DNA of 64,000 bases, taken from assembly GCF_004298475.1 (NCBI RefSeq), contig NZ_SCRP01000009.1, positions 83,856 through 147,855 on the forward strand. The letters are read 5' to 3'. A model generated the notes under the pieces. The model saw only the letters and a program-made list of their open reading frames with translations. It was not told where the DNA came from and searched no databases. Positions 27,470 to 33,345 of this stretch are shown here, in pieces. Source of the stretch: Paraburkholderia sp. GTDB lineage: Bacteria > Pseudomonadota > Gammaproteobacteria > Burkholderiales > Burkholderiaceae. Position 1 is the stretch's first letter, and each line of letters begins with the position of its first letter. A program made the translations under genes and the position numbers.

Positions 27470-27937
27470 GATGCACCTCCTCGTTGTGATTGCGATCTTT
27501 GCTGATAACGGAACACAGTATGGGGCAGCCCCAATCGCTTCGGATGTCGAACAGGGTATGTTTACTATCTACGATGCTAGCACTGCTGGATTCTTCCGCG
27601 GCATCTGCGGCGACCCGTCGCAGAGGACCGCGGCGTGACCGCAGGATCGATGCGCAACCTTGGCCTGGGCATCCGCACCGCATACCGTTCCCGTGACAAC
27701 GCCCGATCAATGCCAACAGATCATGCTCTATACGTGCAGGTCTATGATGTAAGCCGCGTTTTCCAGAACGACAGCCCCATTGTCGACATTCCCGCTGGGG
27801 GAAGATCAAGCGCAATCTGCGGTTGGCTTCTTTATGCCCGGCGTCAGCGGCCGATGAGAATGACAACCCGGTCGCTTGAGTTCGCGCGAAAATTCGAATT
27901 GTGCAGCAAATTGGAAAGTGGTACCTGCGCAGATGGC
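27470..27937. promoter_or_regulatory. Divergent intergenic region upstream of the copper ATPase
   Basis: About 470 bases between the small membrane protein and the ATPase. No MerR/CueR-type spaced palindrome (ACCTTGCC...GGCAAGGT) was found. The frames crossing this region do not resemble proteins. I see no assignable promoter. Confidence 0.45.
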
Positions 27938-27951
27938 AAAGGAGTATCACG

Positions 27952-30243
27952 ATGAGCGGTCAACGTAGCGAAGACAGGTCATCTCAACAACGGATTCCCG
28001 GGCACTCATCCTCCGTCACGCATCTTGTGCACGACATGGATGAGCACCATGCGGGCGCCGGGCACGAGCACCACGGACATGCCCATCACGATGAAGATCA
28101 CTCCGCGCCCGCCGAGCCTTGGCCACCTGTACCGGAAGGCACCATCTACACGTGTCCGATGCACCCGGAGATACGCCAGGACCATCCTGGCCAGTGTCCC
28201 AGGTGCGGCATGACTCTGGAGCCGGTTCTACCCGGCATCGATGAAGGCGAGAATCCGGAGCTGGCCGATTTTCGGCGGCGCTTCTGGTGGACGCTGCCGC
28301 TCACTGCGGTTGTCTTCGTACTGGCGATGTTCGGCCATGGCCTCGAACTGATGTCCACGTCGGCCGGGAACTGGATTGAGTTCGTCCTTGCCACGCCCGT
28401 TACGTTATGGGCCGGCTTTCCGTTCTTCAAGCGATGCGTTCGCTCGTTTCTCAACCGCAGTCCGAACATGTGGACGCTCATCGGGCTCGGAACAGGCGCA
28501 GCCTATTTCTACAGCGTCGTCGCCACCGTCTTTCCGGGGATATTTCCCGCGACGTACAGCGCTCACGGGCGAGTCGGTGTCTATTTTGAAGCCGCAGCAG
28601 TCATCATTTCCCTCACGTTGCTTGGGCAACTACTCGAATTGAAGGCCCGTTCGCAAACGTCCGCCGCCATCAAGGCGCTTCTTGGTCTCGCGCCCAAAAC
28701 TGCGCGGCGCATCAACGCGGACGGCTCAGAGGAAGATGTTCCGTTGTCCCACGTGCACGTGGGCGAACTTCTTCGAGTGCGGCCGGGCGAGAAAGTCCCC
28801 GTGGACGGCGTCGTGACCGAGGGCGCGAGTTCACTCGACGAATCGATGATTACCGGCGAGCCCATTCCCGTGACGAAGCGCGTTGGCGACCATGTGGTGG
28901 GCGCGACGATGAATGCGACCGGCAGCCTTGTGATCCGGTCCGAAAAGGTCGGTTCCCAGACCGTGCTCTCGCAAATCATACAAATGGTCGTGCAGGCACA
29001 GCGCTCGCGAGCGCCCATGCAGCGGATGGCGGACAAGGTTGCGGGCGTGTTCGTCGTGGCGGTCGTCGGCGTCGCGCTGCTGACGTTCATCGTGTGGGGC
29101 CTGCTCGGGCCCGCGCCCAGTTGGGTATTCGGTTTCATCAACGCAGTGGCGGTGCTGATTATCGCGTGCCCTTGTGCGCTCGGACTCGCTACGCCGATGT
29201 CCATCATGGTTGCCACTGGCAGAGGCGCGTCAAACGGGGTGCTCTTTCGCGATGCAGCCGCCATTGAAAATCTGCGCAAAGTCGATGTTCTGATTGTCGA
29301 CAAGACAGGAACACTGACCGAAGGACGTCCGGCCTTCGAGCGGGCAGTGGGGACGAATGGCTACGCCGCTGACGACGTCCTTCGACTTGCGGCGAGTATC
29401 GATCAGGGAAGCGAGCATCCGCTTGCTGCGGCGATTGTCGCGGCAGCGCGCGCAAAGAACCTGGCGCTGGAGCGCGCCGAGGACTTCGAATCCGCGACAG
29501 GCATCGGCGTGCGAGCGCGTGTTGACGGCCGGAAGGTGGCGTTGGGCAACACGGCCCTGATGCAGACTGATTCCGTTTCTGTCGATCTGCTGGCCACGGA
29601 AGCGGACAGCATGCGGTCACAGGGCGCGAGCGTCATGTACCTCGCAGTTGATGGCCGCCTGGCCGGTTTGTTGTCCGTGGCCGACCCGATCAAGGCGACG
29701 ACGCCCGAAGCCCTCGCGACGTTGAAGGAAAACGGCATTCGTGTCGTGATGGCAACCGGCGACGGTGTGGCGACAGCAAAGGCTGTTGCCGGGAAGCTCG
29801 GCGTCGACGAATTCCATGGCGAGGTCAAACCCGCCGACAAACTCGATCTGGTGACGAAGCTTCAGCAAGGCGGGCACGTTGTGGCGATGGCGGGAGACGG
29901 CATCAACGACGCGCCGGCGCTTGCAAAGGCCGATGTCGGCGTTGCCATGGGAACCGGCACGGACGTGGCAATGAGCAGCGCGCAGGTGACTCTCGTGAAG
30001 GGCGATCTGCGCGGCATCGCGCGTGCGCGGGCGTTGTCGGCGGCAACCGTTGCGAACATGAAGCAGAACCTAGGCTTCGCGTTTGTGTACAACTCGCTCG
30101 GCATTCCACTGGCTGCCGGGGTGCTTTACCCGTTCACGGGATTGCTGCTCTCGCCGATGATTGCAGCGCTGGCCATGAGCCTGAGTTCCGCTTCAGTCGT
30201 CTCAAATGCGCTCAGGCTGCGTAACGCGCGAATCCAAGTTTGA
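27952..30243 (+). CDS. copA: Copper/heavy-metal translocating P1B-type ATPase
   Basis: A 763-residue inner-membrane ATPase that exports Cu(I)/Ag(I). The N terminus has a His-rich stretch (residues 27-50, for example HEHHGHAHH) and then a heavy-metal-binding YHS-like module with YTCPMHPEI and QCPRCGM (66-87), in place of CxxC ferredoxin-like domains. The transport motif C406-P-C408 lies in TM6. The actuator loop is [10 protein letters not shown], the phosphorylation site D450-KTGT, and the hinge [27 protein letters not shown] at 27938-27944 sets ATG 27952. It is intact and would be the main metal exporter now that the neighbouring Cus pump is lost. Confidence 0.92.
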
Positions 30244-31346: not shown

Positions 31347-32597
31347 TTAATTGCGCGGCGCAATGTTCAGGTAGGCCGCCGACGATCCGAGCCGTTCCTT
31401 GCCGGCGCCGACTTCCATGCGCGCGATAGCCTGGAGATGCACCTCGTCCGGGCCATCCGCATAACGCAATGCGCGAGCCCAGGTCCAGTGATCGGCAAGC
31501 GGCGTGTCGGGACTCAGCCCCATCGCGCCGAATACCTGCATCGCGCGGTCGCACACGGTCGAATAGACCTGCGGGACCAGCGCCTTGATCATGGAGATCT
31601 CTTTGCGCGCCGCTTTCGCGCCCACTGTATCGAGGAGCCAGGCCGTTTTCAGCACGAGGAGCCGCGCCTGATCGATTTCAATCCGCGATTTCGCAATCCA
31701 CTCGCTCACGCTACCGTGCTGATGCAGATATTTGCCGAAGGTCTTGCGCTCCTGCGCGCGCTCGGTCATCAGTTCGAGCGCCAGTTCCGACGCACCGATC
31801 GAGCGCATGCAATGGTGAATGCGTCCGGGTCCGAGCCGGGCCTGCGCAAGCGCGAAGCCGCTGCCTTCCTCGCCGAGCAGATTCGAAGCTGGTACACGGA
31901 CATTCCTGAACGTCACCTCGCAATGTCCTTCCGGCGAGACGTGATTCATGACGGGGATGTTCCGGACGATCGTCACGCCCGCTGTTCCCGCGGGCACCAG
32001 AATCATGCTTTGCTGCCGATGGCTTTCGGCGTCCGGGTCGGTCTTGCCCATGACGATGAACAGCTTGCAGTCGGGATGCGCGGCATTCGTGATGAACCAC
32101 TTGCGGCCGTTGATTACATAGTCGTCGCCGTTGCGGCGAATGGACGTCGTGATGTTCGTGGCGTCGGAGGAGGGCACGTCGGGCTCCGTCATGGTGAACG
32201 CGGAACGGATCTTGCCCTCGAGCAGCGGTGCGAGCCACGCCTCGCGTTGTGCAGGCGTCGCGAACATGTGCAGCAGTTCCATGTTGCCGGTGTCGGGCGC
32301 GTTGCAGTTAAAGACCTCCGAAGCCCACGACACACGACCCATGACCTCGGCGAGCGGCGCGTATTCGAGGTTCGTGAGACGCGTGCCCGGCTCGTCGTCC
32401 TTCAAATGCGGCAGGAACAGATTCCACAACCCCTCGGCTTTGGCGATGGCCTTCAGGTCCTCCATGAACGACACGGGATAGTGGCCCGCATGCACTTCGT
32501 CCAGCCACTGGCGCTGGCGCGGCACGATGTATTGGTTCATGAAGCTGTGCAGGCGGCGCAGCAGATCTTCGACCTTGGTGCTGTAAGCGAAATTCAT
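31347..32597 (-). CDS. Acyl-CoA dehydrogenase family protein
   Basis: A 416-residue flavoenzyme. AFTMTEPDVPSSDATNI is the FAD/substrate signature 1, and VINGRKWFITNAAHPDC the following strand. QVFGAMGLSPDTPLADHW is the C-terminal block, and RYADGPDEVHLQAIARME carries the usual catalytic-region acid. The subgroup is the ACAD10/11-like branch often found with an aminoglycoside-phosphotransferase-like kinase, an SDR and a histidine phosphatase. Here those partners survive only as the chimeric remnant just upstream. The usual substrate in this branch would be a medium or long acyl-CoA, possibly 4-hydroxylated; loss of the partners makes its present role unclear. Confidence 0.88.
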   Translation of the reverse strand: MNFAYSTKVEDLLRRLHSFMNQYIVPRQRQWLDEVHAGHYPVSFMEDLKAIAKAEGLWNLFLPHLKDDEPGTRLTNLEYAPLAEVMGRVSWASEVFNCNAPDTGNMELLHMFATPAQREAWLAPLLEGKIRSAFTMTEPDVPSSDATNITTSIRRNGDDYVINGRKWFITNAAHPDCKLFIVMGKTDPDAESHRQQSMILVPAGTAGVTIVRNIPVMNHVSPEGHCEVTFRNVRVPASNLLGEEGSGFALAQARLGPGRIHHCMRSIGASELALELMTERAQERKTFGKYLHQHGSVSEWIAKSRIEIDQARLLVLKTAWLLDTVGAKAARKEISMIKALVPQVYSTVCDRAMQVFGAMGLSPDTPLADHWTWARALRYADGPDEVHLQAIARMEVGAGKERLGSSAAYLNIAPRN

Positions 32598-32652: not shown

Positions 32653-32964
32653 TCAGATCGTCAATCCGCCGTCGACGACAATGCATTCGCCGTTCGTATA
32701 GCTCGCCGCGTCCGAGACGAGATAGAGCACGGTGCCCGCCATTTCGTGCGGTTCGCCGTGGCGGCGCAATGGAATCTCGTTGATCCAGCGGTCGTAGATT
32801 TCCCGGTTCTCGAACAGCGCACTGGCAAACCTGGTTTTTGTGAGGCCGGGCAGCAGCGCATTCACGCGAATGCCGAACGGGCCGCACTCCTTGGCGAATG
32901 CGCGCGTCATGTTGACGACCGCGGCTTTCGTGATCGAGTAGATGCCCTGCATGTCGCCCGGCTG
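32653..32964 (-). pseudogene. C-terminal half of an SDR (short-chain dehydrogenase)
   Basis: The segment begins about [17 protein letters not shown] and continues [20 protein letters not shown], ending IVVDGGLTI. It retains the catalytic Tyr and Lys (YSITK) and the C-terminal substrate region of a classical SDR. It lacks the Rossmann loop (TGxxxGIG), NNAG and the catalytic Ser, so it cannot bind NAD(P)H normally. It is fused in frame to phosphotransferase remains. About 150 N-terminal residues are missing. Confidence 0.82.
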
Positions 32965-33135
32965 CAGCGCGTTAGGGCGCACGCCTTGACGCCCTGTGCA
33001 ATCGCGGCCAGGCGGAAAAAGCTGAATGACAGATAAAAATTCCAGTGCTCGACCAAGAAAACCCGGGATGTGCTGCTGCAGGTAATCAGCCAGCCGATCG
33101 ACGTCGAGAGAGATTGCGGTGGATTCGCGGGTCAT
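32965..33135 (-). pseudogene. Remnant of an aminoglycoside-phosphotransferase-like kinase
   Basis: ATG 33135 reads [20 protein letters not shown] then QHIPGF, the typical N terminus of the APH-like kinase encoded with ACAD10/11-type dehydrogenases. Directly after this, in another reading frame at about 32985-33050, the DNA encodes [20 protein letters not shown], the characteristic C terminus of the same family. About 300 residues, including the HxD catalytic loop, are gone. Both ends of one gene therefore survive side by side. Confidence 0.82.
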
Positions 33136-33161
33136 AGATCCTGGTGCGTATCGGCCGGCGC

Positions 33162-33345
33162 TTAACCGTAGGTCTGAAACGCGTGGCGCAGCGGGTCGTC
33201 GAGATGCGGGATCAAACTGCAGGCCGTTGCGTGCGAAATGTTCGCCGAGCCAGCTGCATTGCTGTTCGCCTTTAGCCGAAAGGTTGTCGTAATTCTCGGC
33301 GCCAAGCGATGCTTGGCCGTGTCGCACCAGGTAGAGTTTCGCCAT
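33162..33345 (-). pseudogene. Remnant of a histidine phosphatase (phosphoglycerate mutase-like)
   Basis: The N terminus [20 protein letters not shown] has the catalytic RHG motif and continues to about residue 45 (GLQFD). The following DNA is in another frame and reads [15 protein letters not shown] with a stop at 33164-33162, a plausible native C terminus. The middle of the enzyme, with the second catalytic His, is lost. In its own frame the N terminus runs on into the next two gene remnants as a 230-codon chimeric ORF (33345-32653). Confidence 0.8.

Follow-up and report, generated by a model that had tools for sequence, protein, structure and literature searches.

Three deletions in a phosphatase-kinase-SDR operon of Paraburkholderia sp. 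very probably left a composite pseudogene with an open frame

A 693-bp ORF in the window, which is the whole stretch of 64,000 nucleotides of Paraburkholderia DNA analysed here (its positions are prefixed with w), is in all likelihood a composite pseudogene. It would have arisen by three separate illegitimate deletions in an ancestral operon for a histidine phosphatase (HP), an APH-type kinase, an SDR and an acyl-CoA dehydrogenase (ACAD), and the last of these deletions was probably recent. The alignment with the closest relative found, the arrangement of the operon in other genomes, chance levels for the open frame, domain searches and substitution counts are described below.

Architecture of the chimeric ORF

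The reference for block mapping was locus L061 of Paraburkholderia sp. isolate Bin.013_Forest (G010), a metagenome-assembled genome and the closest relative found, whose contig C22 is NZ_JAMXLH010000022.1. The G010 operon encodes a 224-aa HP, a 342-aa APH-type kinase, a 254-aa SDR and ACAD; we picked the start of the kinase, whose frame continues open upstream of it. When the window was aligned to it, the 693-bp ORF was resolved into four collinear blocks of this operon (Table 1). The aligned blocks of the two sequences, window and G010, share 87–96% identity. The original prediction that a three-gene operon had collapsed into one chimeric ORF was thus borne out by four blocks and three losses relative to G010.

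Only HP residues 1-45, APH residues 1-28 and SDR residues 149-254 are read in their own frames. The HP tail with the spacer and the later APH piece, about 51 codons together, are read out of frame; the HP tail accounts for 49 bp outside the overlap at junction 1, or 58 bp with it. The first remnant carries the RHG motif. Between the SDR stop, where the chimera ends, and the start of ACAD there are 55 bp.

Table 1. Positions in the window of the chimeric ORF, its remnants and junctions, and the gene downstream of it
Feature	Position	Strand	Evidence	Differences from L061
Chimeric 230-codon ORF (693 bp) from operon remnants	32653..33345	-	ORF list and block mapping to G010 locus L061	
Remnant 1: HP codons 1-45, own frame	33211..33345	-	tblastn, 93% over residues 1-45	9 in 135 bp (w33345-33211)
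Remnant 2: HP tail, spacer, APH-kinase codons 1-28	33053..33210	-	L061 mapping, tblastn	22 in 167 bp, overlap included (w33219-33053)
Remnant 3: APH-kinase residues about 288-314 of 342, out of frame	32974..33052	-	L061 mapping, tblastn	4 in 79 bp (w33052-32974)
Remnant 4: SDR residues 149-254 and stop, own frame, without Rossmann half	32653..32973	-	tblastn, 97% over 149-254	16 in 321 bp (w32973-32653)
Junction 1: 491 bp gone inside HP; flanks share a 9-bp imperfect overlap	33211..33219	-	G010 alignment	
Junction 2: 779 bp gone inside APH kinase; no flank overlap	33052..33053	-	G010 alignment	
Junction 3: 569 bp gone; no flank overlap	32973..32974	-	G010 alignment	
Intact ACAD (416 aa), at the end of the ancestral operon	31347..32597	-	97.6% identical to G010 protein	

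Ancestral gene order and lineage of the losses

The best 80 loci of 561 confirmed ACAD relatives were compared. At 67 of the 80, HP, APH, SDR and ACAD were close to full length, uninterrupted by stops and arranged in this order; the other 13 were without one or more genes at the thresholds used, and the contigs of two loci (L087 and L128) begin too near. Judged from these sequences, the intact HP-APH-SDR-ACAD order is evidently the ancestral one, and the claim that the gene ends had been kept in ancestral order upstream of ACAD agrees with the intact order in those 67 loci. The APH kinase of G010 scored far under the cut-offs of three drug-resistance models (31.3 against 205, 20.7 against 390 and 17.3 against 650 bits).

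Conservation of the chimera under purifying selection in several species had been named in advance as evidence against such a collapse, and none of its three 60-base junctions was found in 133 loci of other genomes. The best matches among these loci were 36, 38 and 42 of 60 bases, and the window's own loci gave 60 of 60. Among the matches listed, the query was matched in 44 of 59 genomes, its own included, and no match outside the window's genome (G000) spanned the whole query; a few matches in other genomes overran one junction by 15-30 bases (for example 1-159 in G023 and 358-1997 in G005). Because the junctions are absent from the 133 loci and the order is intact in relatives, the losses are placed in the lineage of the window.

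Deletions and junctions

The three junctions had been predicted near 33211, 33058 and 32975, and the mapping to L061 placed them within 6 bases of these positions. By the deletions of 491, 779 and 569 bp, HP, the APH kinase and the SDR would have lost their working parts, with ACAD left in place. Each loss is 2 modulo 3 in length, and their sum, 1839, is 3 × 613. The kinase is without residues 29-287, and deletion 3 begins at about APH residue 315, takes in the APH stop codon and the spacer, and ends with SDR residue 148; APH thereby also loses its last 28 or so residues and its stop. The view that each gene had lost its middle is therefore right for HP and partly right for APH, but not for the SDR, from which the N-terminal half was removed. 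What had been read as the kinase C terminus ends about 28 residues before that terminus, and the deletions did not each spare gene ends, since deletion 3 crosses the APH/SDR boundary.

Short direct repeats had been suggested for the junctions. At most junction 1 has one, the imperfect 9-bp overlap; junctions 2 and 3 have none, and an origin of all three deletions in short direct repeats was rejected. At the repeat-search settings used, the lone direct repeat in w32600-33450 was a 15-bp pair of 80% identity away from the junctions. Flank overlaps of 2-30 bp were seen at 8 of 20 junctions on C20 (the contig of the window) and C22, junction 1 being one of the eight. Given how little homology, if any, the flanks share, we infer that slippage or an end-joining-like illegitimate recombination with little homology produced the deletions.

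Chance levels of the spared ends and the open frame

Three non-overlapping deletions of the observed sizes were positioned randomly across the three genes. In these trials 0, 1, 2 and 3 of the deletions fell inside single genes in 1, 57, 37 and 5% of cases, respectively, so that two or three intragenic deletions were obtained by chance in 42%. When the breakpoints were jittered by up to 15 bp, 21% of cases still had a frame that begins at the HP start and ends at the SDR stop. At these chance levels neither the spared ends nor the open frame needs a special explanation. The pattern had been called unusual, and this description did not hold; that the frames stay open by accident was supported, accident being the most likely cause. 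The G+C content of the contig is 63%, and the open frame is probably a side effect of the scarcity of stop codons in GC-rich DNA together with a chance re-entry into the SDR frame. More striking than the frame or the spared ends is the occurrence of three losses within 2.5 kb, in surroundings that are themselves rich in losses.

One reading gives the open frame a purpose apart from its product: it would have been kept because a transcript covered by ribosomes spares ACAD downstream from Rho-dependent polarity. In its favour, the combined length of the losses is divisible by three, and ribosomes would go on translating as far as the SDR stop, close before ACAD, but a frame of this kind is also kept by chance at the frequency given above, and the constraint on ACAD itself may be weaker in the window lineage (see below). 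We regard this as the least likely of the explanations considered.

Domain content

The chimera retains little of the three domains: most of the phosphatase, the kinase and the SDR is gone. Pfam His_Phos_1 scored 16.1 bits on it, under the cut-off of 21.7, over positions 1-51 of 194. No match to the APH domain, catalytic loop included, was obtained in the Pfam profile search at E up to 1. The 236-position model PF13561 was matched at 138-236 only, the Rossmann nucleotide-binding half of the SDR being missing; the translation contains YSITK, which fits the YxxxK motif of SDRs. The NCBIfam SDR equivalog NF005446 scored 188.6 against a cut-off of 373, and no NCBIfam model reached its own cut-off among the 25 shown of 182, while two broad Pfam SDR models passed theirs within chimera residues 126-229. 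The expectation that automatic annotation would report a complete phosphatase or SDR is not supported by these scores, in which only the broad Pfam SDR models pass, and over part of the product.

Substitutions and selection

The changes counted in HP, APH, SDR and ACAD were assigned to lineages with three outgroups. The SDR piece acquired 8 changes in the window lineage and 4 in the G010 lineage. Six of the 8 were synonymous and 2 nonsynonymous, and the probability of 6 or more synonymous changes is 0.004 if a quarter of changes are synonymous. From its sequence the SDR piece thus looks constrained, and deletion 3 is probably recent; continued selection on the fused product may be another reading of the same constraint. 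The N-terminal piece of HP was not accelerated, with 1 change in the window lineage, 2 in that of G010 and 5 unassigned. The HP-tail and APH remnants together showed 14 changes against 3, and ACAD showed 16 against 10. The excess in the HP-tail and APH remnants was not significant (P = 0.19 against ACAD and 0.40 against SDR) and may reflect a longer relaxation. Nonsynonymous changes made up 8 of the 16 ACAD changes of the window lineage and 1 of the 10 of the G010 lineage; the surviving gene may be relaxing too or be under weaker constraint.

These counts bear on whether the ORF is a new functional fusion protein that is translated and selected, for example as a C-terminal SDR fragment with a new role. 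Such a protein would fit the lack of interruptions in the frame between HP start and SDR stop, the 97% protein identity of the SDR piece to G010 and the 6 of 8 synonymous changes in it, and the unaccelerated HP piece speaks slightly for selection on the chimera. Against it stand the filler of about 51 out-of-frame codons, the loss of the SDR's Rossmann half and of most of the kinase and phosphatase, the readiness with which jittered breakpoints leave the frame open, and the absence of the junctions from the 133 loci of other genomes. We consider a new functional protein highly improbable. Expression and selection of the fused frame in either form, as a small new protein built around the C-terminal half of the SDR or as a translated leader that keeps ACAD transcribed, are together very unlikely; if true, three deletions in a decaying operon would have given rise to a new gene. 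On the preferred reading, a composite pseudogene, the chimera would be without function.

Losses around the operon and in control regions

Over 53 kb, the window's side compared with C22 of G010 showed 18 net losses of 50 bp or more, including the three in the operon, and 1 gain. One loss was found in the 53 kb of the control pair C18/C47, and 2 losses and 2 gains in the 39 kb of C10/C3. A paralogous match on C20 and a second-copy match (23291) on C10 were left out of the loss counts, and the operon's block of 79 bp was entered manually wherever it was missing. The minimum match length was more than 800 bases for C10/C3 and more than 5000 for C18/C47, and C18/C47 matches of at least 80 bases show no such omission. 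The counts cover the three pairs named; the patchy pairs own_C20/g_C18, own_C38/g_C18 and own_C10/g_C68 lie outside them, and the G000 stretches L054, L055, L056 and L059 lie outside all alignments.

Of 16 losses shorter than 6 kb on C20, 4 were internal to genes, 6 were intergenic and 6 removed a gene end or whole genes, as classified with a rough home-made gene caller (96 genes in 140 kb) by which the intergenic class is perhaps overcounted. The 491-bp deletion was set by hand as internal to HP, the caller having missed HP, whose end is overlain by the APH frame of G010, and having scored the deletion as the loss of one gene end. Sparing of gene ends was rejected as a rule, since 6 of the 16 losses take a gene end or whole genes and deletion 3 crosses a gene boundary. 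Uniform erosion of the genome was not supported either, with 1 loss in the 53 kb of C18; the uneven losses, 18 in 53 kb on C20 and 1 in 53 kb on C18, perhaps reflect different replicons. The direction of change was polarised in the operon only, where G009 is collinear, and some of the losses outside it, most of all the 24.5- and 40.5-kb ones, may be gains of G010.

Several places in these alignments were noted individually. At w28103-28108, a loss of 162 bp relative to G010, a multiple of three, leaves the frame of gene 27901-30243 open; by eye this gene encodes a P-type ATPase, and the loss lies in its histidine-rich N-terminal part. At w26594-26595 and w27197-27846, 5.9 kb of G010 is missing, comprising a whole 430-codon gene and the greater part of a 1116-codon gene. 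Near this loss there are 650 bp present in the window only, with an 80-codon frame whose product by eye resembles a membrane protein. At w48963-49131 and w50242-50263, the 24.5 kb and 40.5 kb of G010 C22 mentioned above are absent from the window, where either direction of change is possible. Elsewhere, an SDR at G000:C38:10400-10976 appeared as two separate matches and its counterpart at G010:C18:11476-12048 as one; it is perhaps another decaying gene.

Paralogues and the state of the assembly

A full-length paralogous phosphatase-kinase-ACAD set is present at G000:C18:9818-13005 (L058), with most of the Pfam model lengths matched. Its APH kinase is 52% identical to the lost APH, and its His_Phos_1 protein is too divergent to be detected with the lost HP at E 0.001; no other match to the operon HP was found in G000. 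Apart from the remnants in place, the APH and SDR matches in G000 were only paralogues, at best 52% and 38% identical, and the SDR matches numbered 32 with the remnant included. The losses were probably tolerated through the redundancy that the set on C18 and the many SDRs would provide.

The same searches bear on an artefact of assembly or binning, in which the organism would have an intact operon and the contig would be wrongly joined. The reference G010 is metagenome-assembled, the G000 assembly is in 38 contigs, and the analysis drew on assembled sequence. Against this, the HP-tail and APH remnants bear 14 changes of their own, the assembly holds no intact copy of the lost genes elsewhere, clean losses occur at many other places on the same contig, and completeness and contamination are estimated at 99.98% and 0.23%. 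An artefact is very unlikely, and the composite pseudogene is retained as the best explanation.

Discussion

The locus offers a snapshot of operon decay in a small GC-rich genome, with three genes reduced to remnants, the last one whole and a paralogous set elsewhere. As about one fifth of the jittered frames stayed open, an uninterrupted reading frame says little about the presence of a gene where DNA is GC-rich. The genome is 4.25 Mb in size, and 34 genomes of the same genus range from 4.1 to 11.1 Mb.

Composite pseudogenes are found in reducing bacterial genomes, for example as fused gene remnants in Rickettsia. There, as here, deletions fuse the remnants of neighbouring genes into a short ORF, with the ancestral order seen in relatives; the present case differs in that GC-rich DNA eases the open frame and the genome is still 4.25 Mb. 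The mechanism of deletion is ordinary, and the composite pseudogene is a new example of a well-known kind.

In PMC11342911, LvaA/LvaC and ACAD10/ACAD11 are described as kinase-dehydrogenase modules for 4-hydroxyacyl-CoA, with Burkholderia orthologues also used. The operon resembles these modules in that an APH-type kinase adjoins an acyl-CoA dehydrogenase, a likeness of domain pairing only; here, however, the kinase is destroyed and ACAD alone is left.

PMC9601139 reports genomes of about 4.1 Mb each for the amoeba symbionts P. bonniea and P. hayleyella and of 7.8-10.1 Mb for five others, and describes the two reduced genomes as stable and without an excess of pseudogenes. The genome studied here is likewise from Paraburkholderia and of similar size, 4.25 Mb against about 4.1 Mb. 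In contrast to the stability described there, the region around the operon has many losses relative to its nearest relative, and G000 may be at an earlier stage of reduction than P. bonniea and P. hayleyella.
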